This document shows positions 182-15,083 of a stretch of DNA of 40,541 nt, in pieces (the first letter of the stretch is position 1; the number at the start of each line of letters is the position of its first letter). Both the position numbers and the translations under genes were made by a program. The DNA lies in contig DASTYK010000161.1 in the NCBI GenBank assembly GCA_035764935.1, forward strand, positions 1 through 40,541. Direction: 5' to 3'. The stretch is from Longimicrobiales bacterium (GTDB taxonomy: Bacteria > Gemmatimonadota > Gemmatimonadetes > Longimicrobiales > RSA9). The notes beneath the pieces were generated by a model that saw nothing but the letters and a program-made list of their open reading frames with translations, was not told the origin of the DNA and ran no database searches.

Positions 182-1417
182 CTAGAAGAACTCCCTCAGC
201 CAGTTCCCCACCCGCACGATCGCGCTCTCGCCCCAGCGCCCGCCGATGCCGGCCTCGAGTGCGTAGTCGGCGCCCATCAGTGCCAGCCCCGTGGCGGTCG
301 CGAACTGCGGGCGCTTCACGGAGTCGGCGAGTCCGCCGAGCCCGTCGCCGGCGATGCCGATGCGGACGGGCATGCTGAACGCGTGCTGTGCGACTTCGGT
401 CGCGCCCTCGAGTCCTGCGCCGCCGCCGGTCAGCACCGCACCGGCTCCGAGCTTGCCGCTCTCGCCGGCGTTCTCGATCTCGCGCGCCACGAGGCCGAGG
501 ATCTCGTCGAGCCGCTGCTCGATGATGTGCGCGATCAGCTCGCGCGCGACGAGCCGTTTGGAGCCGGGGCCCGGGCCGGGCAGCTCCACGCTCTCGCGCG
601 GGTCGACGAGCTGCGTGTAGGCGACGCCGTGCTTCTCCTTGGCCTTCTCCGCCTCGGCGAACGTGATCGAGAGCCCCTTCGCGAGATCATTGGTCACGGT
701 CGAGCCGCCCCACGGGATCGACGCGAGGTGGCGCATCTTCCCCTCACGGAAGATCGCGAGCTCCGTTGTGGCACCACCGAGATCGACGAGTGCGACACCG
801 ACGTCCTTTTCATCGTCCGTCAGCACCGCGTGCGCGGTCGCGAGCGGCTCGTGGATCGTGCGCTCGATGCGGTAGCCGGCGCGGCTCACGGCCTTGCGCA
901 GGTTCTGGCTCGCGTTGATCGCACTCGTGATGATGTAGACCTCGGCCTCGAGTCGCGTGCCGGCCATGCCGATCGGATCGCGGATGCCGCGCTGGTCGTC
1001 GACGATGTACTCCTGCGGCAGCACGTGCAGCACTTCGCGATCCGCCGGCACGACGACAGCCCGTGCGACCTCATGCACGCGCTTCACGTCCGCCGCCGTG
1101 ATCTCCTCGCCGTGCACAGCGACGACGCCGTTCGATGTGCGCGCATGGATGTACTCGCCAGCGACACCGGTGAAGACGCGCTCGCAGGAGACGCCGGCCA
1201 TCAGCTCGGCTTCCTTCATGGCGGCACGCACCGAGTCGGTCGTGCCCTCGATGTCGGTGACGACCTCGCGGCGCATGCCGCCGGTTTTCGTCTGCCCGAC
1301 GCCGAGCACCTTGATCGACGCCTGTCCCTTCACCACGCTCGCGACTTCCGCGATCACGGCACACGTCTTCGTGGATCCGATATCGAGGCCGGCAACGAGG
1401 TTCGCTCGGGTCGTCAT
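182..1417 (-). CDS. ftsA: Cell division protein FtsA
   Basis: Actin-like ATPase that tethers FtsZ to the inner membrane and recruits late divisome proteins. The 411-residue protein shows the actin-fold motifs GLDIGSTKT (10-18), VDLGGATTE (211-219) and LTGGGAGLEG (329-338). It ends in an amphipathic helix (about 398-411, IVRVGNWLREFF) typical of the FtsA membrane-targeting tail. The ATG at 1417 is chosen because homology starts there; an in-frame extension upstream is low-complexity Arg/Ala and overlaps ftsQ. It lies 2 bases after the ftsQ stop. A Pro-Gly run at residues 280-285 is a small lineage-specific insertion encoded by a GC palindrome. Last dcw gene visible; ftsZ should follow off the edge. 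Confidence 0.97.
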   Translation of the reverse strand: MTTRANLVAGLDIGSTKTCAVIAEVASVVKGQASIKVLGVGQTKTGGMRREVVTDIEGTTDSVRAAMKEAELMAGVSCERVFTGVAGEYIHARTSNGVVAVHGEEITAADVKRVHEVARAVVVPADREVLHVLPQEYIVDDQRGIRDPIGMAGTRLEAEVYIITSAINASQNLRKAVSRAGYRIERTIHEPLATAHAVLTDDEKDVGVALVDLGGATTELAIFREGKMRHLASIPWGGSTVTNDLAKGLSITFAEAEKAKEKHGVAYTQLVDPRESVELPGPGPGSKRLVARELIAHIIEQRLDEILGLVAREIENAGESGKLGAGAVLTGGGAGLEGATEVAQHAFSMPVRIGIAGDGLGGLADSVKRPQFATATGLALMGADYALEAGIGGRWGESAIVRVGNWLREFF

Positions 1418-1419
1418 CC

Positions 1420-2184
1420 TCAGCTCTGCTTCCTTGCACGGTCGCGACCTGGCGTCACGACGATCTGATCGCTGTAGCGCGCCTCGACGCGGCGCAGGTC
1501 GCGCAGCTCCCCGCGCGCTCCGAGGTCGGCGAGCGTGAGCCGCAGCTCGCGCAGCCGCTCCGGCGTGAGCGAGTCCGGCAGCAGCACTTCCGCGCGCGTC
1601 GGTCCGCGCATCATCAGGCGGATTCCGCCGCCCTCTGCCGGCGCGATCTCGGAGATCCATGCTGCGAGTGCGGGCTCGTGCACCCGGATCGTCGCCATGG
1701 CCGCTGCCATCCGCACCGTTGCATGATCCGCGAAGCGGCCGTTCGATGCAGGCCGCGATGCAACACCGATCACGGGCAGGTCGAGTGGCTCACTCGTGGG
1801 GTCGAACGTGAGCGCGTGCCCCTCGGCACTGATCGCGACCAGCTCCGGTGTGCGCGCCCATGCCACTGGTTCCGCTTCCGTCACGCGCAGCACGATCGTG
1901 TCCGGGACGCGCCGCTCGATCTCGACGGCCGCGATCATCGGGTGCGCCACCAGTTGCGCATGCCACGGCCCGACGTCGTCGAACACGGTGGCGTCGCTCG
2001 CGATGCCACTCGCGGCCAGCACGGCCTGCGGCGTCATGTAGCGCGTGCCGAGCACTTCCACCCGCTCGACCTGGAACGCGCCACCGGCACGCAGTGCGAT
2101 CGGAGCCGCGGCGGCAGCCCCGGTCAGCAGCAACGCAGCGGCGAGCACGCGCAGCCAGCGGATCCGTAACACACGTCCGATCAT
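1420..2184 (-). CDS. ftsQ: Cell division protein FtsQ (POTRA domain)
   Basis: Bitopic inner-membrane divisome protein that bridges early and late division proteins through FtsL/FtsB. The 254-residue protein has a basic N-terminus, one membrane segment (about 10-30) and a POTRA-like domain starting VERVEVLGTRYMTPQAVL (about 39-56), followed by the FtsQ beta domain. The region containing ERRVPDTIVLRVTEAEPVAW is typical of FtsQ/DivIB. Sequence conservation in this family is low, but size, topology and position between murC and ftsA agree. The ATG overlaps the murC stop by 4 bases (ATGA), which suggests translational coupling. Longer in-frame upstream reading lies inside murC and is not credible. 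Confidence 0.93.
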   Translation of the reverse strand: MIGRVLRIRWLRVLAAALLLTGAAAAAPIALRAGGAFQVERVEVLGTRYMTPQAVLAASGIASDATVFDDVGPWHAQLVAHPMIAAVEIERRVPDTIVLRVTEAEPVAWARTPELVAISAEGHALTFDPTSEPLDLPVIGVASRPASNGRFADHATVRMAAAMATIRVHEPALAAWISEIAPAEGGGIRLMMRGPTRAEVLLPDSLTPERLRELRLTLADLGARGELRDLRRVEARYSDQIVVTPGRDRARKQS

Positions 2185-3578
2185 GCGGCCTCCGCGAAGC
2201 GCGCGTACACGGCACGAATCGCCGTGTCGATGTCCCCCGCACCCATGCCGATGCAGACGTCCTGGTCGACCAGCACGCGCCCCAGATCGTCCTGCAATGC
2301 GTCGAGAGTCGGGGTGTAATGGACGCCGTCCGCCCCTGCGCGCCGCGCCGCATTCACGATCATCTCGCCCGTCACGCCTTCGATCGGCTGCTCGCGGGCA
2401 GCGTACACGTCGGTGACCCAGACCGCGTCCGCCTGCGCCAGCGCGTAGCCGAACTCGACCGCCAGGTCGCGTGTGCGGCTGTACAGGTGAGGCTGGAACA
2501 CCGCGACGATGCGCTGGCCCGGGTACACACTGCGCGCGGCCGCGAGTGTTGCGGCGATCTCCGTCGGATGGTGAGCGTAGTCGTCGACGAACGTCACGCC
2601 GCGTGCGGTGCCGACCACCTGGAACCGGCGCGACACACCGTGGAACGCTGGCAGCGCCCGCTGCACCGCATCGAACGAAGCGCCTGCGTGGCGCGCAAGC
2701 GCGATCGCCGCGAGCGCATTGCGCACGTTGTGCAGCCCCGGCACACCGAGCATTACCTGCCCGAGCGGCTCGTCGTTGTCGTGCACCTGGAACCGTGTGC
2801 TGCTGCCCGTCGGCGCAACGTCGGTCGCGCGCAGCCCGGCGTACGTGCGCGTGCCGTAGCGCACGACCCGGGGGTCGCTCGCCGGCAGCAGTCCCGACGC
2901 ACCCTCGTCGTCGGCGCACAGCGCGATCAGGCCATCCTGCGGGACCCGCGCGAGCAGCTCACGGAATGCCGCGTGGATCTCCTCGATCGAGCCGTAGATG
3001 TCCATGTGATCGGCTTCGACGGACGTGACGGCGACCGCCTCCGGCTGCAGCGTCAGGAAGGACCGGTCGTACTCGTCCGCCTCGACCACGTACAGCCGGC
3101 TCTCGCCGCGGCGCAGGCCGCCGCCCCAGGCTTCGACGCGCCCACCGACGAACGCCGTCGGGTCCAGGCCTGCCGAATCGAGAATCGCAGTCAGCATCGC
3201 CGTCGTCGTCGTCTTGCCGTGCGTGCCCGCGACGGCGAGCACGGTGCCCGCGTTCACGAACGCGCCGAGCGCCTGTGCACGCTTGAGCACAGGGATGCCG
3301 CGCTCACGAGCCGCCTGCAGCTCCGGGTGCGACGGCGGCACGGCGGCCGTGACCACGACGGCCGCCGCATCGGCTACATGGGCCGGGTCGTGCTGTGCAC
3401 TCACCTGCACACGGTCGCCGAGCAGCGACTGCGCGGCCGCTGCATGCAGGTCGCAGCCGGTCACGCGCGCACCCGCCCGCATCAGGGCGTCGGCGAGCGC
3501 CGACATCCCTGCACCGCCGATCCCCATGAAATGGATCGTGCCGCGCTGCGCGAGTGCGAGCAGATCGACGCTGCTCAT
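2181..3578 (-). CDS. murC: UDP-N-acetylmuramate--L-alanine ligase MurC
   Basis: Cytoplasmic ATP-dependent ligase adding L-Ala to UDP-MurNAc, the first peptide-stem step. The 465-residue protein has the N-terminal nucleotide-sugar binding glycine motif (MGIGGAGMSALA, about 18-29), the ATP loop AGTHGKTTTT (117-126), the central Mur ligase motif with EADEYDRSF, and the C-terminal region with YAHHPTEI. Usual length for the family. The ATG at 3578 overlaps the murG stop by 4 bases, and its own stop overlaps ftsQ. In many bacteria murB and ddl sit between murC and ftsQ; here they do not. Confidence 0.98.
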   Translation of the reverse strand: MSSVDLLALAQRGTIHFMGIGGAGMSALADALMRAGARVTGCDLHAAAAQSLLGDRVQVSAQHDPAHVADAAAVVVTAAVPPSHPELQAARERGIPVLKRAQALGAFVNAGTVLAVAGTHGKTTTTAMLTAILDSAGLDPTAFVGGRVEAWGGGLRRGESRLYVVEADEYDRSFLTLQPEAVAVTSVEADHMDIYGSIEEIHAAFRELLARVPQDGLIALCADDEGASGLLPASDPRVVRYGTRTYAGLRATDVAPTGSSTRFQVHDNDEPLGQVMLGVPGLHNVRNALAAIALARHAGASFDAVQRALPAFHGVSRRFQVVGTARGVTFVDDYAHHPTEIAATLAAARSVYPGQRIVAVFQPHLYSRTRDLAVEFGYALAQADAVWVTDVYAAREQPIEGVTGEMIVNAARRAGADGVHYTPTLDALQDDLGRVLVDQDVCIGMGAGDIDTAIRAVYARFAEAA

Positions 3579-4705
3579 GCGGCCCCCGGCAGCAGGCGAG
3601 CCAGCTGTTCGGCGATCTCGCGCGCAGCGTCCGGATGTGCGCGCCCGCGCGCGGCGGCACGCATCGACTCCTGCCGCGCAGGGTCTGCGAGCAGGTCCGC
3701 CAGCGCCCGCCACAGCACGCTGCCGGTCAGCGTCGCCTGCGGCAGGTGCAGCGCCGCGCCGGCCGCGTCCAGCGCCTGCGCGTTGTGCGTCTGGTGATCG
3801 GCGGCGGCCGTCGGCAGAGGAACGAGCAGCATCGGCACGCCCCACGCGAGCAGCTCCGCGGTCGCCATAGCACCCGCGCGTGACACAGCGACGTCGGCCG
3901 AGCTTAGCGCATCGTTCATTGCGTCGATGTAACCCACGGCGCGCACCCAGTCGGCCGCGCCCAGCCGCTCGATCTCGGCACCGATGGCATCGATGTGGCT
4001 CGGGCCGGTGGCCCACAGGATCTCGAGCTTCGACGCAGGCCGCTGCAGCTCACCGGCGGCCACCGCACGCAGTGCCTCGAGCAGCGCATCGTTGAGCGCG
4101 AGTGCTCCCTGGCTGCCGCCGACGATCAGCACCACCGTCGAATCGGGGGACAGGCCGAAACGTGCACGTGCGGCGGCACGGTCGATCTGCGCGGGCGGCC
4201 GGATCGGATTGCCGAGCGCGAACACCTCCGTGTTGCGGCCCGGCTTCATCCGCTGCGCGGCCTCGGGGAAGCCGAGATGCACCTGGGCCGCAAAGCGCGC
4301 CAGCATCCGCACGGTCAGGCCCGGAAACGAATTCTGCTCCTGCACGGCGAGGGGCACGCCCGCCGCTACTGCGAACAGGCCGGCGGGCGCACTCGCATAG
4401 CCGCCCGTTGCGACGACGAGCCGGGGCGAGAAGCGCATGAACAGGCGCCCGAGACCGAGGAAGCTGCGCGACAGCCCCATCATCGTGGTCGCGTTGCGCC
4501 AGACCTGCGCACGGTAGACCGGATGGAACGGCAGCAGCGTGTGCGGGACGCCGCGCTGCGGCAGCACACGCGCCTCCACACCTCGCTGCGCACCGACGAA
4601 GTGCACCTGCGTGCCGGGACGCACCTCCTGCAGCGCATCCGCGAGAGCGAGCGCGGGATACAGGTGCCCGCCCGTGCCGCCGCCGGCAAAGAGCACGCGA
4701 CTCAC
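3575..4705 (-). CDS. murG: MurG, undecaprenyl-PP-MurNAc-pentapeptide GlcNAc transferase
   Basis: Peripheral inner-membrane GT28 glycosyltransferase that converts lipid I to lipid II using UDP-GlcNAc. The 376-residue protein carries the N-terminal G-loop GGGTGGHLYP (8-17), the QEQNSFPGL motif (about 122-130) and the donor-side loop GGSQGALALN (196-205). The start is a GTG at 4703-4705 overlapping the ftsW stop (GTGA); the first residues SRVLFAGGGTGGH match the family N-terminus, so the in-frame ATG 20 codons upstream is rejected. Part of the coupled dcw string. Confidence 0.98.
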   Translation of the reverse strand: MSRVLFAGGGTGGHLYPALALADALQEVRPGTQVHFVGAQRGVEARVLPQRGVPHTLLPFHPVYRAQVWRNATTMMGLSRSFLGLGRLFMRFSPRLVVATGGYASAPAGLFAVAAGVPLAVQEQNSFPGLTVRMLARFAAQVHLGFPEAAQRMKPGRNTEVFALGNPIRPPAQIDRAAARARFGLSPDSTVVLIVGGSQGALALNDALLEALRAVAAGELQRPASKLEILWATGPSHIDAIGAEIERLGAADWVRAVGYIDAMNDALSSADVAVSRAGAMATAELLAWGVPMLLVPLPTAAADHQTHNAQALDAAGAALHLPQATLTGSVLWRALADLLADPARQESMRAAARGRAHPDAAREIAEQLARLLPGAA

Positions 4706-5877
4706 TCGGCCTCCCTGCTCGAGCGGCGGGCGATGTTCATCAGGATGCCCACCGCGGCCATGCATACGATCAGGCTGGAGCCGCCGTACGAGATGAACGG
4801 CAGCGTCACGCCGGTCGTGGGGATGAGCGCACTGTTCACCGCCATGTGCAGCAGCGCCTGCACCACGATGAGGTTCGTGACGCCGATCGCGAGCAGGCTG
4901 CCGAACAGATCCGGCGCGTTACGGGCGACACGGTAGCCGATCAGTGCGATGCCGCTGTAGGCGAGCACCAGCGCCGCCATGCCGATGAAGCCCCACTCTT
5001 CGCCGATCATTGCGAAGATGAAGTCGTTGTGCGGCTCGGGCAGGAACCCGAACTTCTGCTGGCCGTGACCCAGCCCTCGTCCGAGCAGGCCGCCGCTGCC
5101 GAGCGCGATCAGCGCCTGCGTGATCTGGTAGCTGACGCCGGCGGGGTCATGCGTCGGATCGATGAACGCCAGGATCCGGCGCATCCGGTACCCGACACCG
5201 CTCACCTGCGTCAGCAGGAAGGGCAGCATCAGCGCGCCGAGCACCACGAAGTGCGCGATGCGCGCACCGCCCGCGAACAGCACGAGCGCCGCGAGCAGCA
5301 CGACCAGTGCGGCCGCCGACATGCTGGGCTGCATCATGATCAGTGTCGCGACCGTTCCCCACACGAGCAGGAAGGGCAGCAGTCCCTTGCTCAGGCTGCC
5401 CAGCCGGTCCTGCTTGCGCACGGCGACCGCGGCCGTCCAGATGATCAGCACCAGCTTCGCCAGCTCGGAGGGCTGCCCCTGGATCCCACCGAGGTCGATC
5501 CAGCGACGCCCGCCGTTCACGCGCGGCGCTATGCTCTCGGTGCCCGGCAGCAGCACGAAAACGAGCAGCCCGACGACGACCAGCAGCATCGGCCAGGCGA
5601 AGAAGCGGAGCACCCGGTAGTCGAGGTACGCCATGACGGCGAGGAGCAGCAGACCGAGCGAGCCGCCGATCGCCTGGCGGATCACGAAATGGTAGTCGGC
5701 CAGCCCGTCCGTCTGCGCCTTGATCGCGCTCGCGCTGTACACGGCGACCAGCCCGAACGACAGCAGCGCAACCGCCAGCAGCAGCAGCACGGGCGCTTCC
5801 CATCCGCGGCTCAGTCGCGTGAGCGCCTGGGCGTTCAGGTCCGCATGCGCGCGCGGCGCCACGGCTGCCCGGCTCAT
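4702..5877 (-). CDS. ftsW: FtsW, SEDS-family septal glycan polymerase
   Basis: Polytopic SEDS protein that polymerises lipid II at the septum together with the class B PBP FtsI. The 391-residue protein has about ten hydrophobic segments, with the first near residues 29-50. It carries the family signature PTTGVTLPFISYGGSSLI at about 353-370 and FAMIGEEWGFIG before it. The N-terminal 25 residues are a cytoplasmic basic tail. ATG at 5877 overlaps the murD stop by 4 bases. FtsW is preferred over RodA because of the dcw context and the PTTG-TLPFISYGGSS form. Confidence 0.97.
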   Translation of the reverse strand: MSRAAVAPRAHADLNAQALTRLSRGWEAPVLLLLAVALLSFGLVAVYSASAIKAQTDGLADYHFVIRQAIGGSLGLLLLAVMAYLDYRVLRFFAWPMLLVVVGLLVFVLLPGTESIAPRVNGGRRWIDLGGIQGQPSELAKLVLIIWTAAVAVRKQDRLGSLSKGLLPFLLVWGTVATLIMMQPSMSAAALVVLLAALVLFAGGARIAHFVVLGALMLPFLLTQVSGVGYRMRRILAFIDPTHDPAGVSYQITQALIALGSGGLLGRGLGHGQQKFGFLPEPHNDFIFAMIGEEWGFIGMAALVLAYSGIALIGYRVARNAPDLFGSLLAIGVTNLIVVQALLHMAVNSALIPTTGVTLPFISYGGSSLIVCMAAVGILMNIARRSSREAE

Positions 5878-7223
5878 GCCTCACCTCGCGCAAGCGCGCG
5901 GAACGCGTCGCCGCGCTCCTCGTAGTTGCGGAACATGTCGAAGCTGGCGCATGCCGGCGCCAGGAGCAGCGCATCGCCGGGCCGTGCACGCGCTGCGGCG
6001 TGTGCCACGACGTCGCTGAAGCTGCCATCGACGCGCTCGAGCGCGACGACGCCGCCCAGCTCACGCTCGATGAGATCCGCCGCCGCGCCGTATGCGACCA
6101 CCAGCCGGACGTGGCTGCGGAGCCCGTCCCCGAGGCCGGCGTAGGGCTCGCCCTTGTGCACGCCGCCGAGCAGCAGCACCGTCGGCCGCGTCATGCTTTC
6201 CAGCGCGACGCGCGCCGATGCAACGTTGGTCGCCTTGGAGTCGTTCACCCAGAGAACGCCGTTGCGCTCGCCGATCACCTCCAGGCGGTGCGGCAGTCCC
6301 GGGAACGTGCGCAGCCCTTCCCGCACGGCATCGACACTCGCACCGGCGGCTACACTTGCGATCGCGGCGGCCAGCGCGTTCGCGCGGTTGTGTCGTCCCA
6401 GGATGCGCAGCTCCGCGGTGCCCAGCAGCGCCGTGGCGGTGCCGCTCATGTTCAGCAGGAGTTGCTCACCGCTCAGCCAGCCGCCGCGCTCGGTCGAGGC
6501 GAGCGGGGTGTGAACGCGGAACACGTAGCGCGTACCCGGCGCATCCGCGGCCAGCGAGAGCACGTCGGCCTCCTCCCCGTTGAGAACCCACGTACTCTCA
6601 CTGACCGCGTTGTCGAAGAGATGCGCCTTGTCTGCGTAGTAGTCCCTTACACTCGCGTACCGATCGAGATGGTCCGGTGCGAGGTTCGTCACGACGCCGA
6701 TGCGCGGCGCGAACGTGTCGACATCCGCGAGCTGGAAGGAGCTCGCCTCCACGACCACCCAGTCCGGCGCATCGTTGCGCAGCGCAACTTCGGACAGCGG
6801 CGTACCGATGTTGCCGGCCGCCGGCGCGTCATAGCCGGCTGTCGTGAGCAGATGGGAGGCGAGCGCCGTCGTCGTGCTCTTGCCATTGGTTCCCGTGATC
6901 GCGACCACCGGTGCGTCCAGGTAGCGGTACGCGAACTCGAGCTCGGACATGCGCGTGACGTGCGCAATGCGCGCATCGCCCAGCACCGTGGCGGTCGGCG
7001 GGATGCCGGGACTGACCACGATGGTGTCGCACTGCGCCAGCCGTGCGACGTCGTGGCCGCCCGTCTGCGCTTCACCGCCCGCCGTGCGGATCTCCTCCGC
7101 CGCCGCGCGCAGCTCCGCGGTGTCGCCGGAATCCGAGGCGTACACGCGCGCGCCGCGCGCCAGCGCGAGTCGCGCCGCCGCGCGCCCGCTGCGCGCAAGT
7201 CCCAGGATGCCGACGTTGGTCAT
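5874..7223 (-). CDS. murD: UDP-MurNAc-L-alanine--D-glutamate ligase MurD
   Basis: Cytoplasmic ATP-dependent ligase that adds D-Glu to UDP-MurNAc-L-Ala. The 449-residue protein has an N-terminal Rossmann motif (GILGLARSGRAAA, about 5-17), the ATP loop GTNGKSTTT (111-119), the NLAPDHLDR central motif and the VNDSKATN motif. The ATG at 7221-7223 overlaps the mraY TGA by one base (TGATG); 13 codons of upstream in-frame sequence belong to mraY. Canonical position between mraY and ftsW. Confidence 0.98.
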   Translation of the reverse strand: MTNVGILGLARSGRAAARLALARGARVYASDSGDTAELRAAAEEIRTAGGEAQTGGHDVARLAQCDTIVVSPGIPPTATVLGDARIAHVTRMSELEFAYRYLDAPVVAITGTNGKSTTTALASHLLTTAGYDAPAAGNIGTPLSEVALRNDAPDWVVVEASSFQLADVDTFAPRIGVVTNLAPDHLDRYASVRDYYADKAHLFDNAVSESTWVLNGEEADVLSLAADAPGTRYVFRVHTPLASTERGGWLSGEQLLLNMSGTATALLGTAELRILGRHNRANALAAAIASVAAGASVDAVREGLRTFPGLPHRLEVIGERNGVLWVNDSKATNVASARVALESMTRPTVLLLGGVHKGEPYAGLGDGLRSHVRLVVAYGAAADLIERELGGVVALERVDGSFSDVVAHAAARARPGDALLLAPACASFDMFRNYEERGDAFRALARGEA

Positions 7224-8332
7224 CAACGGATCTTCAGCGTGCTGAATGCGACCAGGCTGCACAGGATCCCCAGGATCCAGAAGCGCATGATGATCTTGCT
7301 CTCGGCCCAGCCCTGCTTCTCGAAGTGGTGGTGCAACGGCGCCATCGCGAGCAGCCGCTGCCCGCGTCCCTGCGTGCGCGCCGTGTACTTGAACCAGCCG
7401 ACCTGCGCCATCACGCTGATCGCCTCCACCACGAAGACGCCGCCCACGATGACGAGCAGGAACTCACCCTTGATCAGAACGGCCACTGCGCCCAGCGCAC
7501 CGCCCAGCGCGAGCGAGCCGGTGTCCCCCATGAACACTTCCGCGGGGTGCGCATTGAACCAGAGGAATCCCAGCGTCGCACCGGCCAGCGCGACGCAGAA
7601 GATCGACAGCTCACCCGCGCCGGCCATGTAGAACAGTCCGAGGTAGTTCGACGTATCGACGCGACCGATCACGTATGCGAAGACACCGAACGTCGCCGCC
7701 GCGATGGCCGAGAGTCCGCCCGCGAGGCCGTCCAGGCCGTCCGTAAGGTTCACCGCGTTCGAGCTGCCCGCGAGGACGAGCATCACCCACGGGATGAACA
7801 GGACCGGCAGGATGAACGCGACGTGGTAGTCGGCGAAGAACGGAACGCTGGTCCAGTGCGTCGGGATGTCCGACGCGGGCCAGATCAGCAGCACGATTCC
7901 GACGATGATGCCGATCATGCCCTGGCCGATCAGCTTGTACTTGCCGACCAGTCCCTCGGTGCGACGACGCACGACCTTCAGGTAGTCGTCCAGGAAGCCG
8001 AGTGCGCCCAGCCAGACCATGACGGCCATCGCGATCAGCACGTACTCGTTGGTGAGGTCCGCCCAGAGCAGCGTGCCGATCAGGGTTGCGACGATGATGA
8101 GCACACCGCCCATGGTCGGCGTGCCCGCCTTGGCCAGGTGCGACTGCGGCCCCTCCTGTCGCACGACCTGCCCGAAGCGCAGACGCTGCAGCCACCGGAT
8201 GATCGGCGGACCGAACAGGAACGCGATCATGATGGCCGTCGCCATGCCGCCCGCTGCACGGAACGTGATGTAGCGGAACAGGTTGAGAAACGAGTACTGG
8301 TCCGCCAGCGGGTACAGCAGGTGATAGAGCAT
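7223..8332 (-). CDS. mraY: Phospho-MurNAc-pentapeptide transferase MraY
   Basis: Integral membrane enzyme that moves phospho-MurNAc-pentapeptide to undecaprenyl phosphate, giving lipid I. The 369-residue protein has about ten membrane segments. Family motifs seen: SHLAKAGTPTMGG (about 64-76), the Asp pair in FLDDYLKV (113-120), NLTDGLDGLAGG (195-206), and HHHFEKQGW (334-342). Length is normal. It lies 3 bases after the murF stop and its TGA is shared with the murD ATG. Confidence 0.98.
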   Translation of the reverse strand: MLYHLLYPLADQYSFLNLFRYITFRAAGGMATAIMIAFLFGPPIIRWLQRLRFGQVVRQEGPQSHLAKAGTPTMGGVLIIVATLIGTLLWADLTNEYVLIAMAVMVWLGALGFLDDYLKVVRRRTEGLVGKYKLIGQGMIGIIVGIVLLIWPASDIPTHWTSVPFFADYHVAFILPVLFIPWVMLVLAGSSNAVNLTDGLDGLAGGLSAIAAATFGVFAYVIGRVDTSNYLGLFYMAGAGELSIFCVALAGATLGFLWFNAHPAEVFMGDTGSLALGGALGAVAVLIKGEFLLVIVGGVFVVEAISVMAQVGWFKYTARTQGRGQRLLAMAPLHHHFEKQGWAESKIIMRFWILGILCSLVAFSTLKIR

Positions 8333-8335
8333 CGC

Positions 8336-9829
8336 CTACGCTTTCCCGCCCTCGGGCGCGTTGGTGTTACGGGGGTGCTCCGCCGAGGGCGCGTCGTCAC
8401 GCCCGTCGGTAATCGTTTCGATCGCCCGCGACCCGAAGGCCTCCCCGTGCGGGTGGAGCACTCCCCATGTCTCTGCGAACCGCGGCAGCAGTCGCTCCAG
8501 CGCGACACCGCGCGATCCTTTCAGCAGTACGATCTCGTTACCGTGCAGCCGGCCCGCGAAGCGCGCGTACGCCTCGAGCGGATCGGCCTCCCGGATCAGC
8601 CGGTCACCCAGCGCCGCCGCATGCTCGTCGAACGCCGCGACGAAGTCGCCCGTCGCAACGATCAGGTCCACGTCACTCGCAGCGACCTCGCCCGCCGTCT
8701 CCGCGTGCAGTCGCCCGCTCTCGGCGCCCAGCTCGCGCATCGTGCCGAGCACCGCGACCCGGCCACCAGCACGCGGCAGCGAAACGAGCAGATCGATTGC
8801 GGCCTGCACGCTGGCCGGGTTCGCGTTGTAGCAGTCCGCGATCACGGTCATGGCGCCGTAATGGTGGAACTCGCCGCGCATCTTCGCCGGCGCGAGCTGC
8901 GCCATGCCGGTGACCGCACCGTCCATGTCGACGCCGAGCTCACTCGCGATCGCCAGCGCGAGCAGCGCGTTGCGCGCGTTGTGCCGGCCGCGCAGCTGCA
9001 ACGCGATGGTGCGTCCCTGCCAATCGAAACGGACCGCGCCGTCCTCGTCGAGCCGCACGTTCGTTGCACGGTACGCGGCATCGGCATCGCTGCCAGTCCC
9101 GACGACGACCACCCGCGACACCAGTGCGCGCGCGCGGGCGGCGAGAGCGGTCGGCTCGTCCGGGACCGCGGCCATTCCGCGCTCCGACAGCCAGGGCAGC
9201 ACCGACGTCTCCTCGCGCAGCACACCATCCAGGTCACCCAGCCCCTCCAGGTGCTCGGCGCCGATCGACGTGATCACCGCCACGTCCGGCTCCACGATGC
9301 CCGCCAGGCGCGCAACCTCTCCCGGCGTGTTCGTGCCGATCTCCGCTACGACGACTTCCGTGCCCGCCGGCGTGGCGAGCAGCGTCAACGGCGCGCCGAT
9401 CAGGTTGTTCAGGTTGCCCGTGGTCGCATGAACGCGGTACTTCGACGCCAGTGCGGCACGCAGCAGGTCCTTGGTCGTGGTCTTGCCGTTCGCGCCGGCC
9501 ACCGCGACAACCGTCCAGCCCATGCGACGCCGGTGGAAGCGGCCGATGCGACCGAGTGCGCGCAGCGTGTCCTCGACGAGGTAGAGGTGCAGCGACCCGG
9601 GTGCGTCTTCAGGTATGCGCTGCACCACCGCTGCCGTCGCGCCCGCGTCCGCTGCCTGCTGCAGGTACTCGTGCCCGTCATGGTTCTCGCCGACCAGCGC
9701 AACGAACACCTGCCCGTGCGCCAGAGAGCGCGTGTCGGTGCTGATGCCGGTGTAGACCGCCCCGTCGGACCGGGCGTCCGTCCCGATGCCGAGGGCCGCG
9801 CAGATCGCCGCGTGCGTCCAGGTGCTCAT
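8336..9829 (-). CDS. murF: UDP-MurNAc-tripeptide--D-Ala-D-Ala ligase MurF
   Basis: Cytoplasmic ligase that adds the D-Ala-D-Ala dipeptide, completing the pentapeptide precursor. The 497-residue protein shows the N-terminal Mur domain (GISTDTRSL, about 28-36), the ATP loop GANGKTTT (112-119), the EIGTN motif, RGRHNARNALLA, and DCYNANP (typical MurF form). The long upstream in-frame extension is murE in another frame. The ATG at 9829 overlaps the murE stop by 4 bases. Residues after about 465 form a polar tail (EAFGSRAIET...) slightly longer than usual. Confidence 0.97.
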   Translation of the reverse strand: MSTWTHAAICAALGIGTDARSDGAVYTGISTDTRSLAHGQVFVALVGENHDGHEYLQQAADAGATAAVVQRIPEDAPGSLHLYLVEDTLRALGRIGRFHRRRMGWTVVAVAGANGKTTTKDLLRAALASKYRVHATTGNLNNLIGAPLTLLATPAGTEVVVAEIGTNTPGEVARLAGIVEPDVAVITSIGAEHLEGLGDLDGVLREETSVLPWLSERGMAAVPDEPTALAARARALVSRVVVVGTGSDADAAYRATNVRLDEDGAVRFDWQGRTIALQLRGRHNARNALLALAIASELGVDMDGAVTGMAQLAPAKMRGEFHHYGAMTVIADCYNANPASVQAAIDLLVSLPRAGGRVAVLGTMRELGAESGRLHAETAGEVAASDVDLIVATGDFVAAFDEHAAALGDRLIREADPLEAYARFAGRLHGNEIVLLKGSRGVALERLLPRFAETWGVLHPHGEAFGSRAIETITDGRDDAPSAEHPRNTNAPEGGKA

Positions 9830-11313
9830 CGTGCCGCTCCGTTCGTACTCTCGAGCAGCTCGTGCACGATTGCGGCCTCGTCGAACGGCCGCTTCTCCGT
9901 CCCGATCACCTGGTACGTCTCGTGGCCCTTCCCCGCGAGCAGGATGATGTCGTCCGCCGATGCCATGTCGAGCGCCGCAGCGATCGCAGCGCGACGATCC
10001 GTGATGCGCACGTAGCCGTCCCGCATCCCGCCGACGATCTCGTCGATGATGGCGTCCGGATCCTCGGTGCGCGGATTGTCCGACGTTACGATCGCGACGT
10101 CCGCTCCCTCCTGCGCTGCGCTGCCCATCAGCGGGCGCTTGCCCCGGTCGCGATCGCCACCCGCGCCGAAGACGACGATCACCCGGCCGTCGGTGAGCGG
10201 GCGCAGCGTTGCAAGCGCACGCTCCAGCGCATCGGGTGTGTGGGCGTAGTCGCGCAGCACGGGACACGGGATGGCGGTGAGCCGCTCGAGCCGCCCCGGT
10301 ACCTGCGGCGTCGTCTCGAGCTGGTGCGCGATCTCGTCGGGCGCGAAATCCAAAGCCACACCCACCGCGGCCGCCGCAAGCGCGTTGGATACGTTGTACG
10401 CGCCGAGCAGCGGCAGTGAGACGGGCACCGCACCCTTCGGCGTTTCCAGCCGGAAGTGCGCACCACGGCCGTCGATCTCCAGGTCGCGGGCGGTGATGTT
10501 GGCGTCGTGATGGATGCCGAAGCGCAGCAGCCGCGCGCCCTTTGCGCCGAGCGAATCCCACGCGCGGTCGTCGGCATTGGCAATTGCCCAGCCGTCCTCG
10601 CGCAGCAGATCCTCGAGCTGCAGCTTCGCCTCGAGATACGACTCGAGTGTGCCGTGGTAGTCGAGATGATCCCGGCTCAGGTTCGTGAAGACGCCGGCAT
10701 CGAACCGGAGCCCGTGCATGCGCCCCTGGTGCAGCGCGTGCGACGACGCCTCCATCGCGAGCGCACGCACGCCGCGGTCGACCAGGGCGCGCAGTGTCGC
10801 CGCAAGCTCGACCGGGCCGGGTGTCGTCAGCGTGTCACTGCCGCTCACGATCTGGCCGCGCTCCAGCACCGCGCCCAGCGTTCCGAGCGATGCGCTCGGC
10901 CAGCGCGCCGCCAGAACGTGGCGCACCAGCCAGGCGGTCGTCGTCTTGCCGTTCGTGCCCGTGATGCCGACCAGCACGAGATCGTCCTGGGGATCACCGT
11001 ACACCACGCTCGCAGCGACCGCCGCCGCGCGGCGGCCGTCACGAACGATGATGCGCGGGGTGGGACCGGTGTCGTCCGCGCGCTCGGCGATCACGGCGAC
11101 CGCGCCTGCGTGCACGGCGAGCGGGATGAAATCGTGGCTGTCGCGCGCGGTGCCATGCCATGCACAGAACACCATACCGGGCTCGACGCGCCGGCTGTCA
11201 TCCGCGATGCCGCCGACCTGCAGGTCGACGGCCGGCCGCGGGCCCGCGAGCAGACCCGCATTGTCGAGCCGCTCGACGATGGCGCGCAGCGGGACCTCGC
11301 GCGGGCGGCTCAC
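9826..11313 (-). CDS. murE: UDP-MurNAc-tripeptide synthetase MurE (meso-DAP type)
   Basis: Cytoplasmic ligase adding the third stem residue to UDP-MurNAc-L-Ala-D-Glu. The 495-residue protein has the ATP loop GTNGKTTT (119-126), the NLSRDHLDYH motif, and DNPR at 412-415. In this family DNPR marks enzymes that use meso-diaminopimelate rather than L-lysine, so the wall is predicted to be of the DAP type. The ATG overlaps the ftsI stop by 4 bases. Full length, no oddities. Confidence 0.98.
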   Translation of the reverse strand: MSRPREVPLRAIVERLDNAGLLAGPRPAVDLQVGGIADDSRRVEPGMVFCAWHGTARDSHDFIPLAVHAGAVAVIAERADDTGPTPRIIVRDGRRAAAVAASVVYGDPQDDLVLVGITGTNGKTTTAWLVRHVLAARWPSASLGTLGAVLERGQIVSGSDTLTTPGPVELAATLRALVDRGVRALAMEASSHALHQGRMHGLRFDAGVFTNLSRDHLDYHGTLESYLEAKLQLEDLLREDGWAIANADDRAWDSLGAKGARLLRFGIHHDANITARDLEIDGRGAHFRLETPKGAVPVSLPLLGAYNVSNALAAAAVGVALDFAPDEIAHQLETTPQVPGRLERLTAIPCPVLRDYAHTPDALERALATLRPLTDGRVIVVFGAGGDRDRGKRPLMGSAAQEGADVAIVTSDNPRTEDPDAIIDEIVGGMRDGYVRITDRRAAIAAALDMASADDIILLAGKGHETYQVIGTEKRPFDEAAIVHELLESTNGAAR

Positions 11314-13310
11314 CGGCCCTCCGGACGCGCCAGTACGCGCACGAGCGTGCCCTGCGGAACGGCAGCACCGGCGTCCGGCCAGGTCGCGCTCACCACACCG
11401 GCACCATCGACCTGTACACGCACGCCGGAGGCATGCAGCACGCGCACAGCATCGCGCAGCGGCAGGTCGACCACGTCGGGAACGTCGACCTCCGGGGCGC
11501 TCCTGGCCGGCTGGCCCGTGGACGACCCGTCGAGCGCCAGCACGAAGGGGCCGCGCCCCTCCAGTGAGCGCGCAGCGTCGTGCTTCCGCACGGCAGCGGG
11601 TATCGCCGGTGTCTCCGGAAGCAGCGCGGGCTCCGCCGCAATCGTGCGCCGGTCGAAGGGCGCGTGATGCGCCGCCAGCGCCGCCTCCAGCGCACTGCGC
11701 GTGATCGGGGCGGCCGTGGCGCCGCCGTAGTACGCACCCTTCGGCTCGTCGACCTTGGCGAGGAACACGAGCTGCGGGTCATCCGCGGGGAAGTAGCCGG
11801 CGAACGACGCAGTGTACGCGCCCGGCACGTAACGGCCGTTCTCGGCGATGCGGGCCGTGCCCGTCTTGCCTGCTACCAGGAAGGGACCGAGGGCCGCCTG
11901 CTGCCCGGTGCCGCCCTCCACGACGTCGATGAGCGCAGCGCGCAGCTGCTCCGACACGGCTTCCGGCACGACGCGCCGCACCACTGTCCTCTCGTACGAT
12001 TCCTGGACGCGACCATCGCGCGTGCGCACCTCGCGCACCAGCCGGGGCTCGAGCAGCTCGCCACCATTCGCCAGCGCTGCATAGGCGAGCGCCATCTGCA
12101 GGGGCGTGACCGAGATCTCGTACCCGATCGCGAGCGACGGCTGCGACTGCCTGGACCAGCCGCGCGGCGCGCGGAGCAGTCCCCCACTCTCCGAGGGATA
12201 GTCGATGGCCGTGGGGGAGCCGAAGCCGAAATCACGCAGGTACTGGTACTGCGTCGCGGGATCGAGCCGCATCGCGAGCTTCGCGAGCGCCACGTTGGAC
12301 GACTTCTGCAGCGCCTCGTGCACCGTCAGCCAGCCGTAGCCGTGCACGTCGCTGATCGTGCGCCCGAGGTACGTCCAGTTCCCCTGCTCGGCGAACACAC
12401 TGTCCGTCATGCGCGCTCGCCCGGCAGCCAGCAGCGAGGCGACCAGGAACGGCTTGATCGTGGACCCCGGCTCGTACGGCTCGGTGACCGCGCGCCAGTT
12501 GCTGGCAGCGCCGTCACGACCCCGGCTCGCGGCAGCAAGCACGTCGCCCGTGCGCGGATCCAGCAGCAGGAACTCGCCGCCTGCCGCACGCGTGCTGTCG
12601 ATCGCAACACGCAGCGCCTCGTCCGCGATGGACTGCAGCTCCGCATCCAGCGTGAGGTACACATCCTGGCCCGGCTTCGGCTCGACGACGCGCACCATGG
12701 CGCCGGGAATCGGGCGACCGCGCGCGTCGCGCCGGACCGTCGCACGGCCGGGCTCGCCTCGCAACACGTCGTCCAGTTCCATCTCGAGTCCGCCGAGCGC
12801 CGTCCCCTCCGCGTTCACCCGGCCCAGCAGCTCGTGCGCGATCGTGCCGTGCGGGTAGAACCGCTGCTGCACCGTCTCGAAGTGCACGCCCTGCACGCCG
12901 TCCAGCGCCTCGCGCGCCGCCGCACCGAACCGGCCGCGCAGCACGACCCAGCGCCGCTTCACGTCCGTTGCACGCCGCGCCTCACGCAGGCTGACACCAC
13001 CCACCTCCGTCAGCGCGCTGATCACCCGCTCACGATCCTTCACCTCGCGCGGCGCAATCGCGATGCGATAGACGTCGCGGCTGGCCGCCAGCGGCACGCC
13101 ATTGCGGTCGTAGATCGTGCCGCGCGGCGCAGGCAGCGAGAGCCCCTGCTCCTGCTGCTGCTCCGCGCGCTCCGCCCACTCCACGCCCTCGCCCAGCGTG
13201 AGATGGGCCGTGCGCGCCATCACCACGCCCGCACCGCACAGCACGCCCAGCAGCAGCACGCGGCGACGCAGGGCCGGCGCGCGCGGCGCGGCTTCCCTGC
13301 GCCGGCTCAC
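11310..13310 (-). CDS. ftsI: Class B penicillin-binding protein FtsI with one PASTA domain
   Basis: Septal peptidoglycan transpeptidase working with FtsW. The 666-residue protein has a basic N-terminus, one membrane anchor (about 16-33), a pedestal domain beginning PRGTIYDRNG (62-71), and a transpeptidase domain with STIK (283-286, nucleophile Ser283), SSN (337-339) and KTGT (482-485). Residues about 607-662 (VDVPDVVDLPLRDAV and onward) form a single C-terminal PASTA repeat, common in many lineages but absent from E. coli FtsI. The start is GTG at 13310, overlapping the ftsL stop (GTGA). Size and context identify it as the division PBP. Confidence 0.97.
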   Translation of the reverse strand: MSRRREAAPRAPALRRRVLLLGVLCGAGVVMARTAHLTLGEGVEWAERAEQQQEQGLSLPAPRGTIYDRNGVPLAASRDVYRIAIAPREVKDRERVISALTEVGGVSLREARRATDVKRRWVVLRGRFGAAAREALDGVQGVHFETVQQRFYPHGTIAHELLGRVNAEGTALGGLEMELDDVLRGEPGRATVRRDARGRPIPGAMVRVVEPKPGQDVYLTLDAELQSIADEALRVAIDSTRAAGGEFLLLDPRTGDVLAAASRGRDGAASNWRAVTEPYEPGSTIKPFLVASLLAAGRARMTDSVFAEQGNWTYLGRTISDVHGYGWLTVHEALQKSSNVALAKLAMRLDPATQYQYLRDFGFGSPTAIDYPSESGGLLRAPRGWSRQSQPSLAIGYEISVTPLQMALAYAALANGGELLEPRLVREVRTRDGRVQESYERTVVRRVVPEAVSEQLRAALIDVVEGGTGQQAALGPFLVAGKTGTARIAENGRYVPGAYTASFAGYFPADDPQLVFLAKVDEPKGAYYGGATAAPITRSALEAALAAHHAPFDRRTIAAEPALLPETPAIPAAVRKHDAARSLEGRGPFVLALDGSSTGQPARSAPEVDVPDVVDLPLRDAVRVLHASGVRVQVDGAGVVSATWPDAGAAVPQGTLVRVLARPEGR

Positions 13311-13597
13311 GGCAGCACCTCCGTCGTGTCACTCACGATCACGATCTCCGACGCGGCAGGAACGCGCAGGTCCAGGCGCCGCGCCGCAGCCGCGAGCACG
13401 CGCGGCCTGCTCTCCAGCCGCTGCGCCTCGTGCACGAGCCGCGCTCGCTCCGCTTCCGACAGCGCACGATCCTGCCGGACCGCGTCCAGCTCGCGCATCA
13501 CCTCCAGCGCACGACTCTGCCGCCACACGACGCTGGTCAGCGCAGCGAACAGCGCCGCAAACGCGACCGCCGTCCGGATCGTGCCGCGCGCCGCCAT
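13307..13597 (-). CDS. ftsL: FtsL-like bitopic division protein
   Basis: Small 96-residue protein in the ftsL slot between rsmH and ftsI. It has a short basic N-terminus, one membrane segment (about 8-25) and an extracytoplasmic, Arg/Glu-rich helical stretch (about 30-75) fit for a coiled coil, then a short hydrophobic tail (SEIVIVSDTTEVLP). FtsL proteins are poorly conserved, so the call rests on topology, size and position. The ATG at 13595-13597 shares one base with the rsmH TGA; upstream in-frame sequence is rsmH. Known partners are FtsB and FtsQ; no ftsB is visible here. Confidence 0.82.
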   Translation of the reverse strand: MAARGTIRTAVAFAALFAALTSVVWRQSRALEVMRELDAVRQDRALSEAERARLVHEAQRLESRPRVLAAAARRLDLRVPAASEIVIVSDTTEVLP

Positions 13598-14520
13598 CAG
13601 GCCGCCTTCCGCCAGGCGCGCAGCTTCGCACTGCGCGCACGCGGGTTGGCTTCCACTTCCGACGCACCCGCAGTCACCGGCTTGCGCGTGACCAGTCCGC
13701 CCAGCGCACGGCCGCGGCACCTGCACACCGGCAGCTCCGGCGGGCACACGCAGTCGCGGCTCCACTCGCGGAACGCATCCTTCACCTGCCGGTCCTCCAG
13801 CGAGTGATACGACAGCACCACGAACACGCCGTTCGGCTCCAGCCGGTCGCGCAGCGCAGGCAGCGCCCGGGCGAGAACCCCCATCTCGTCGTTCACCGCG
13901 ATCCGCAGCGCCTGGAAGATGCGCGCCCGATCCTGGTTCGTCGTGCGCGGACCGAGCGCCGTGTCGATCGCTCCCAGCAGGTCGTCGCTCGTGCGGAATG
14001 GCTGCGTGCGACGCCGCTTCACGACCTCACCCGCCAGCCGCCGCGAACGCCGCTCCTCGCCGAACCGGTAGAACACGTCCGCCAGCTCGCGCTCCTCCAG
14101 CTCGTTCAGCAGGTCCGCCGCGGTCGGAACCGCGGCCGAGCCAGCCGCCATGCGCATGTCCAGGGGTGTGCCGGGGCGGAAGGAGAAGCCCCGTGTCTCT
14201 TCATCGATCTGATGCGAGGAGATGCCCAGGTCCAGCAACGCACCGGCGAGCGACTCCTCCAGCCGCTCGGCGGCATCCGCAAAGTTGGATTCGACCAGCC
14301 GCACCCGTCCACCGAACCGCTCCAGCCGCGCACCCGCCGTCGCCAGCGCGTCCGGGTCCTGGTCCACACCGATCACCCGCGTGTCGTCGCTCGCCTCGAG
14401 AATCGCTTCCGTATGGCCGCCTCCGCCCAGCGTGCCGTCGAAGTACAGGCCGCCCGACTCCGCGCCCAGGTACGCAACCACCTCGCGCACCATCACCGGA
14501 TCGTGATACGCGCGCGCCAT
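13597..14520 (-). CDS. rsmH: 16S rRNA (cytosine1402-N4)-methyltransferase RsmH (MraW)
   Basis: SAM-dependent methyltransferase that modifies C1402 of 16S rRNA. The 307-residue protein begins ARAYHDPVMVREVV, the usual RsmH N-terminus, with the SAM loop TLGGGGHT (30-37), a DQDPDAL acidic strand end, DLGISSHQID and the C-terminal LSYHSLEDRQVK motif. ATG at 14520 directly abuts the mraZ stop (14521). Standard second gene of a dcw cluster. Confidence 0.98.
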   Translation of the reverse strand: MARAYHDPVMVREVVAYLGAESGGLYFDGTLGGGGHTEAILEASDDTRVIGVDQDPDALATAGARLERFGGRVRLVESNFADAAERLEESLAGALLDLGISSHQIDEETRGFSFRPGTPLDMRMAAGSAAVPTAADLLNELEERELADVFYRFGEERRSRRLAGEVVKRRRTQPFRTSDDLLGAIDTALGPRTTNQDRARIFQALRIAVNDEMGVLARALPALRDRLEPNGVFVVLSYHSLEDRQVKDAFREWSRDCVCPPELPVCRCRGRALGGLVTRKPVTAGASEVEANPRARSAKLRAWRKAA

Positions 14521-14976
14521 CTACAGGAAGATCTGCGCTGCGAACCGTTCGAACTCGCCGCTCTGCTCGCCCACGGCGCCTTCGAACAGCTCCGGGTTCC
14601 AGATCTCGACCTTGTCGATCGCTCCCACCAGCAGCGCCTGTCCATCGAGCTGCGCTGCATCCTTCAGACGCGCCGGCACCAGAATCCGACCCTGCGCGTC
14701 AGGCACCACCTCCACCGCATTCGACATCATCCGCAGAACCCACATGCGCGCCTCCGGCTGACGACGCAGCAGGTCCTGCAACCGCTCCTCCACCTCCGCC
14801 CACGTGCCCTCCGGATACAGCGTCAGCGCCGGCGCATGCGCCTGGATCAACACAAATGCCTGATCCGCCGCCTCCCGCCGGAAGGCGGCTGGCAGACTGA
14901 CCCGACCTTTGCTGTCGAGCTGGTTCTGGTAACTGCCCAGAAACTTGACCCGCGACGGGGCGCGCGTGCCGGCCAA
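14521..14976 (-). CDS. mraZ: Transcriptional regulator MraZ
   Basis: Ring-forming AbrB-like DNA-binding protein that represses its own dcw operon in studied bacteria. The 151-residue product has two SpoVT/AbrB modules: YQNQLDSKGRVSLPAAFR (about 16-33) and a second with DAQGRILVPARL. No ATG or GTG precedes the conserved FLGSYQNQLD at a useful distance: the codon before KFLG is GTC. A TTG at 14974-14976 has AAGGAG five bases upstream, so I choose TTG. The length is then typical (E. coli MraZ is 152). An upstream ATG giving 170 residues would run through the operator region, which makes it unlikely. Confidence 0.93.
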   Translation of the reverse strand: MAGTRAPSRVKFLGSYQNQLDSKGRVSLPAAFRREAADQAFVLIQAHAPALTLYPEGTWAEVEERLQDLLRRQPEARMWVLRMMSNAVEVVPDAQGRILVPARLKDAAQLDGQALLVGAIDKVEIWNPELFEGAVGEQSGEFERFAAQIFL

Positions 14977-14981
14977 AAGGG

Positions 14982-14987
14982 CTCCTT
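14982..14987 (-). promoter_or_regulatory. Shine-Dalgarno of mraZ deciding a TTG start
   Basis: On the minus strand AAGGAG lies exactly five bases upstream of TTG (14974-14976). This is the only strong ribosome site near the conserved MraZ N-terminus and fixes the start. Confidence 0.75.
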
Positions 14988-15017
14988 GGTTGTCCGAGCG
15001 ACTCGGAGGAAGTAGTT

Positions 15018-15052
15018 CCCCACTTCTCCCCACTTCCTCCCACTTCGCGCCA
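15018..15052 (-). promoter_or_regulatory. MraZ operator: TGGGN box array
   Basis: Minus strand, reading toward mraZ: TGGCG (15048-15052), TGGGA (15038-15042), TGGGG (15028-15032), TGGGG (15018-15022), each 10 bp apart with 5-bp spacers (CGAAG, GGAAG, AGAAG). E. coli MraZ is known to bind TGGGN repeats with 5-nt spacers ahead of its own gene. Three boxes are perfect and the promoter-proximal one is degenerate. The array starts just after the -10 element, so bound MraZ should block initiation or escape. Confidence 0.88.
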
Positions 15053-15054
15053 CC

Positions 15055-15083
15055 ATACTACGCCCCGCTGTTTTGGCCGTCAA
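15055..15083 (-). promoter_or_regulatory. dcw (mra) promoter, sigma70 type
   Basis: Minus strand: -35 TTGACG (15078-15083), a 17-bp spacer, then -10 TAGTAT (15055-15060). Each hexamer is one or two bases from consensus and the spacing is ideal. The predicted transcription start, near 15048, falls at the first MraZ box, leaving a leader of about 70 nt before mraZ. Confidence 0.82.

Follow-up and report, generated by a model that had tools for sequence, protein, structure and literature searches.

Sequence analysis of a box array that is very probably the MraZ operator of the dcw cluster in a Longimicrobiales bacterium, and of its reversed counterparts in a sister family

MraZ is a ring-shaped oligomer of AbrB-like subunits, and work by Eraso from 2014 is said to have described MraZ boxes at the Pmra promoter of E. 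coli. At the PmraBc promoter of B. cenocepacia, binding of MraZ to the promoter fragment was reported by EMSA, and four repeats with a 10-bp period (7 nt plus a 3-nt spacer) were identified, located downstream of the -10 element and over the start of the dcw operon (PMC7761207). For Mollicutes, AAAGTG[T/G] is given as the MraZ operator word, and deletion of mraZ is reported to raise the expression of the cluster in M. genitalium (PMC8475190). Moreover, the titles of two cryo-EM entries (PDB 9r4j and 9sz7) name MraZ together with its promoter and with a '4 box promoter'.

The DNA analysed here, referred to as the window, is a stretch of 40,541 nucleotides from a Longimicrobiales bacterium (GCA_035764935.1, contig DASTYK010000161.1; Table 1). 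Downstream of the -10 hexamer, its minus strand carries four successive decamers, GTGGCGCGAA GTGGGAGGAA GTGGGGAGAA GTGGGGAACT, which form an array of one degenerate GTGGC box and three GTGGG boxes with a period of exactly 10 bp, about 40 bp upstream of mraZ. The array thus comprises at least three direct GTG/TGGG boxes with a 10-bp period and, on the predicted promoter, sits after the -10 element and over the transcription start. A sequence-only reading of this region had claimed TGGGN boxes at exact 10-bp steps directly past the promoter, which were recovered at the claimed place on the minus strand, and a degenerate fourth box over the predicted start, which corresponds to box 1. The latter lies immediately before and over the predicted transcription start, about 7 nt past the -10 hexamer. 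A TGGC box after the -10 element is common to the window and three other loci (L014, L020, L024). The same reading had described a near-consensus promoter with a 17-bp spacer; the promoter and its spacer are present, but TTGACG-17 bp-TAGTAT matches only 9 of the 12 consensus bases and is therefore fair rather than near-consensus. It was the sole promoter-like match within 2.5 kb, with 0.2 expected.

Table 1. Positions of the promoter elements, boxes and dcw cluster genes in the window.
Feature	Coordinates	Strand	Remarks
-35 hexamer TTGACG	15083-15078	-	promoter scan
-10 hexamer TAGTAT	15060-15055	-	17-bp spacer from -35
Box 1 TGGCG, degenerate	15052-15048	-	covers predicted transcription start
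Box 2 TGGGA	15042-15038	-	
Box 3 TGGGG	15032-15028	-	
Box 4 TGGGG	15022-15018	-	last box of the array, ends at 15018
Shine-Dalgarno-like AAGGAG	14982..14987	-	
mraZ	14521..14976	-	PF02381 3.1e-26; TIGR00242 98.3 bits vs cut-off 98.35
rsmH (mraW)	13597..14520	-	
ftsL, probable	13307..13765	-	TIGR02209 1.9e-07, below cut-off
ftsI-type penicillin-binding protein with PASTA domain	11310..13310	-	
murE	9826..11313	-	
murF, mraY, murD, ftsW, murG, ftsA (further dcw genes)	182..10561	-	

The array of the window resembles PmraBc in its four repeats, their 10-bp period and their position past the -10 element and over the start (PMC7761207). B. cenocepacia belongs to a different phylum and has start site and binding data, whereas in the window the start site and the operator are predicted from the sequence. 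In E. coli (L041), three TGGG boxes at 10-bp steps, as in the window, lie between the promoter and mraZ; the imperfect box differs in position, being a GGGT slot nearest the gene in E. coli and the degenerate box nearest the -10 element in the window. The Mollicutes operator likewise consists of direct repeats, built around a GTG core and bound there by MraZ, although its word is A-rich and has a weaker G run than that of the window (PMC8475190).

The array is immediately followed by mraZ, the first gene of the dcw cluster, and the position before this cluster claimed from the sequence was confirmed by the genes downstream, from rsmH, a probable ftsL, ftsI and murE through to ftsA. On its other flank, the promoter faces a divergent gene for a YegS/DAGK-type lipid kinase. 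Translation of mraZ probably starts at the TTG codon at 14976, behind AAGGAG: read from this codon, the product (LAGTRAP...) aligned with the MAGTRSP... (ATG start) of L004 and L006, and a longer frame starting at GTG 15033 would begin within the box array. The predicted structure of the window MraZ (pLDDT 89.5) matched MraZ chains at Z of 18-19, among them M. genitalium MraZ, the above cryo-EM entries included (Z of about 18). An alignment of 41 MraZ members, associated with both forward and reversed arrays (see below), showed shared invariant residues including D24, G27, R28, D96 and R100, and the DxKGR and DxxGR motifs were conserved. Named relatives sharing 57-63% identity with the MraZ protein were MAGs of Gemmatimonadota; the scan of named relatives comprised seven, four of them Gemmatimonadota, and their loci were displayed outside the matrix scoring described below.

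Concerning the expectation by chance, three exact boxes occurred once in the window, the mean over 100 shuffles being 0.01, and four GTGG at 10-bp steps had one exact match, with a shuffle mean of 0.09 even when two mismatches were permitted. One of 20,000 local shuffles reached the array. At the genome level (3.83-Mb draft), the three-box word had a single match and the reversed-pattern control two, so that it is the location of the word, which by itself can recur, that is decisive. As for a wider MraZ regulon, no second three-box site was found in the genome of the window, and off-site matches across 41 genomes were about as rare as those of the reversed-pattern control; at the present stringency, the predicted regulon is the dcw operon only.

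The distribution of the array was examined in every genome with MraZ from two surveys (41/41 and 83/200, with 25 in both). These 99 genomes provided 100 mraZ upstream loci, as one genome held two copies; 99 loci were scored, L005 being too short. A decamer weight matrix was built from 23 forward arrays belonging to families f1 and f3, and the threshold was placed at the 99.9th percentile of the scores of 3960 shuffles. On this basis, an array was detected in 85 of the 99 upstream regions, on the gene strand in 56 and on the opposite strand in 29. These 85 include the 23 training arrays; outside f1 and f3, 62 of 74 loci passed. The spacing was also apparent from direct counts made without the matrix: three or more successive TGGG were present at a step of 10 in 56 of 93 loci and at steps of 6-9 and 11-15 in none. 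For TGG runs, step 10 accounted for 77 of 93 loci, and no other tested step exceeded 2 of 93 (family f10, L016 and L086 excluded). Among 61 forward-type loci, 124 TGGG pairs on the gene strand were 10 bp apart, one was 9 bp and one 11 bp apart, and none at distance 10 was found on the other strand. The sequence-only reading had named absence of the array from relatives as evidence that would count against it; the array proved instead to be widespread. A chance low-complexity repeat could be suspected from the control counts, which give about one to two three-box words expected per genome. The low expectation in the window (0.01) and a placement kept across the phylum argue against such a repeat, which has next to no probability and is refuted by the conservation.

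The array was also tied to the presence of mraZ. A matrix scan upstream of rsmH in relatives without MraZ detected it in none of 19 loci, 17 genomes of this control being valid, as L123 (contig end) and L127 (inner piece, split gene) miss the upstream region. The array is thus kept with mraZ (85/99 loci) and absent without it (0/17 valid genomes). In the survey of the phylum, 117 of 200 genomes (families f4, f5 and others) had no MraZ match, and rsmH was found in 18 of the 20 MraZ-less genomes searched, with no array before it. In genus g12, four short additional frames of 92-106 aa, among them G020:C171:8926-9027 and G022:C1:1126966-1127067, gave weak matches to one half of the MraZ profile.

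The 14 loci under the threshold comprised two at contig ends (L016, L086), four of family f10, five of f2, two of f7, and L011. The five f2 loci leaned to the reverse strand, four of them with degenerate arrays, and the two f7 loci (L054 and L106) had degenerate boxes. No clear array was seen upstream of mraZ in L011 and in L032, the latter being the fifth of these f2 loci. The f10 loci (L059, L102, L103, L104), which belong to another, distant class of the phylum, were devoid of TGGG arrays and had GTG at 10-bp steps, with eight GTG pairs at distance 10 on the gene strand; they look closer to the Mollicutes word AAAGTG[T/G] (PMC8475190) than to TGGG. In family f7 (L054-L057, L092, L101, L105-L107), additional TGGT/TGGG/GGGG boxes were observed upstream of the -35 element at steps of about 10 bp, besides the array after the -10 element. 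Such boxes on both sides of the promoter could possibly form a two-sided operator.

Within the Gemmatimonadota surveyed, the arrays on the opposite strand point to a change of orientation in the sister family f2. Among its 49 loci, 29 had a reversed array (CCCAC at 10-bp steps; e.g. L012, L018, L021, L053, L058, L073, L096), 5 a weakly reversed one and 15 a forward one. Read on its own strand, the decamer consensus was almost identical in forward and reversed arrays, with GTGG, mostly a further G, and an A-rich spacer. The orientation of the promoter was unchanged, and in most of the loci with a placed promoter only a few bases lay between the -10 element and the beginning of the reversed array, these gap counts being rough as the promoter finder misplaced or missed promoters in many f2 and f7 loci. 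A three-box run on both strands was found in no locus. One genome (G204) had two full-length MraZ genes, each with a reversed array (L052 and L099).

In a tree of the MraZ proteins, all 15 f2 loci with a forward array formed one clade (100/99), and the orientation required two changes on the best tree. A topology constraining all reversed loci to one clade was not rejected (p-AU 0.246), so that the flip took place once or twice. On this sequence evidence, the flip of the array in f2 looks real. No report of reversed MraZ arrays was found in a literature search. The MraZ operator is likely to be free in its polarity, the array having turned once or twice in one family of the order while the word, the step, the number of boxes and the place at the promoter were kept; a sister family with a reversed array makes the forward polarity inessential to the MraZ code.

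Both orientations also bear on the reading of the G-rich run as a G-quadruplex, in DNA or RNA, for which S. aureus offers a precedent: a G-quadruplex is reported to lie directly downstream of its mraZ promoter, and such motifs are said to recur in other bacteria (PMC11796246). Of the 85 arrays, 33 did match a pattern of four G3 runs on one strand, but the other 52 did not, and four GGG runs with loops of 1-7 were absent from both strands of the region upstream of the window mraZ. In addition, the initial T and the 10-bp step, neither of which a quadruplex needs, are conserved, and 29% of the boxes in reversed arrays have no third G and yet keep GTGG at the 10-bp step. As the T and the step are kept and the window is free of the pattern, a quadruplex fails to explain the conservation; this structure is very improbable as the basis of the array and was rejected.

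A role of the boxes mainly in translation or in the leader, as a Shine-Dalgarno-like G-rich stretch or a hairpin, was given an even smaller place and was considered extremely improbable. The array does contain GGAGG, and GGAGGAAGT at 15040-15032 is complementary to ACTTCCTCC just downstream (window 15008-15040). However, the leader fold was no better than that of shuffles (z = -0.48), mraZ has its own AAGGAG close to the start, and reversed arrays place CCCAC in the leader; this explanation was rejected.

The array is very probably the operator recognised by MraZ, a transcription factor whose gene stands first in the dcw cluster, and none of the observations made spoke against this assignment. 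The proposal of an E. coli-type MraZ code in a distant lineage is borne out by the array itself, the downstream mraZ, the 10-bp step and the position after the -10 element, all conserved in relatives, and by the TGGG boxes at the same 10-bp steps before mraZ in E. coli, and the reading of the array as a MraZ operator is supported as far as sequence can tell. Direct repression from one face of the DNA fits the array. Subunits of the MraZ ring would set on successive GTGGGRNNNA boxes along one helical face, and MraZ bound over the start site would occlude it and block RNA polymerase, so that mraZ and the genes co-read with it would be repressed. A fall in MraZ would then allow expression of the cluster, and a rise would stop its own synthesis.

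The arrangement is ordinary and already described, since the same anatomy has been published with EMSA in B. cenocepacia and a cryo-EM entry carries MraZ with a '4 box promoter' in its title; the window holds an instance of it in a little-studied phylum. The MraZ code, shown experimentally in a few model bacteria, is thereby extended to a phylum with little genetics. The survey also suggests that, where G-rich 'quadruplex' motifs have been described in front of mraZ in other bacteria, a comparison with MraZ boxes should come first. The reversed arrays of family f2 offer a naturally occurring test of whether a direct-repeat operator depends on its orientation: if both orientations repress, MraZ would act by simple occlusion, with no directional contact with RNA polymerase.
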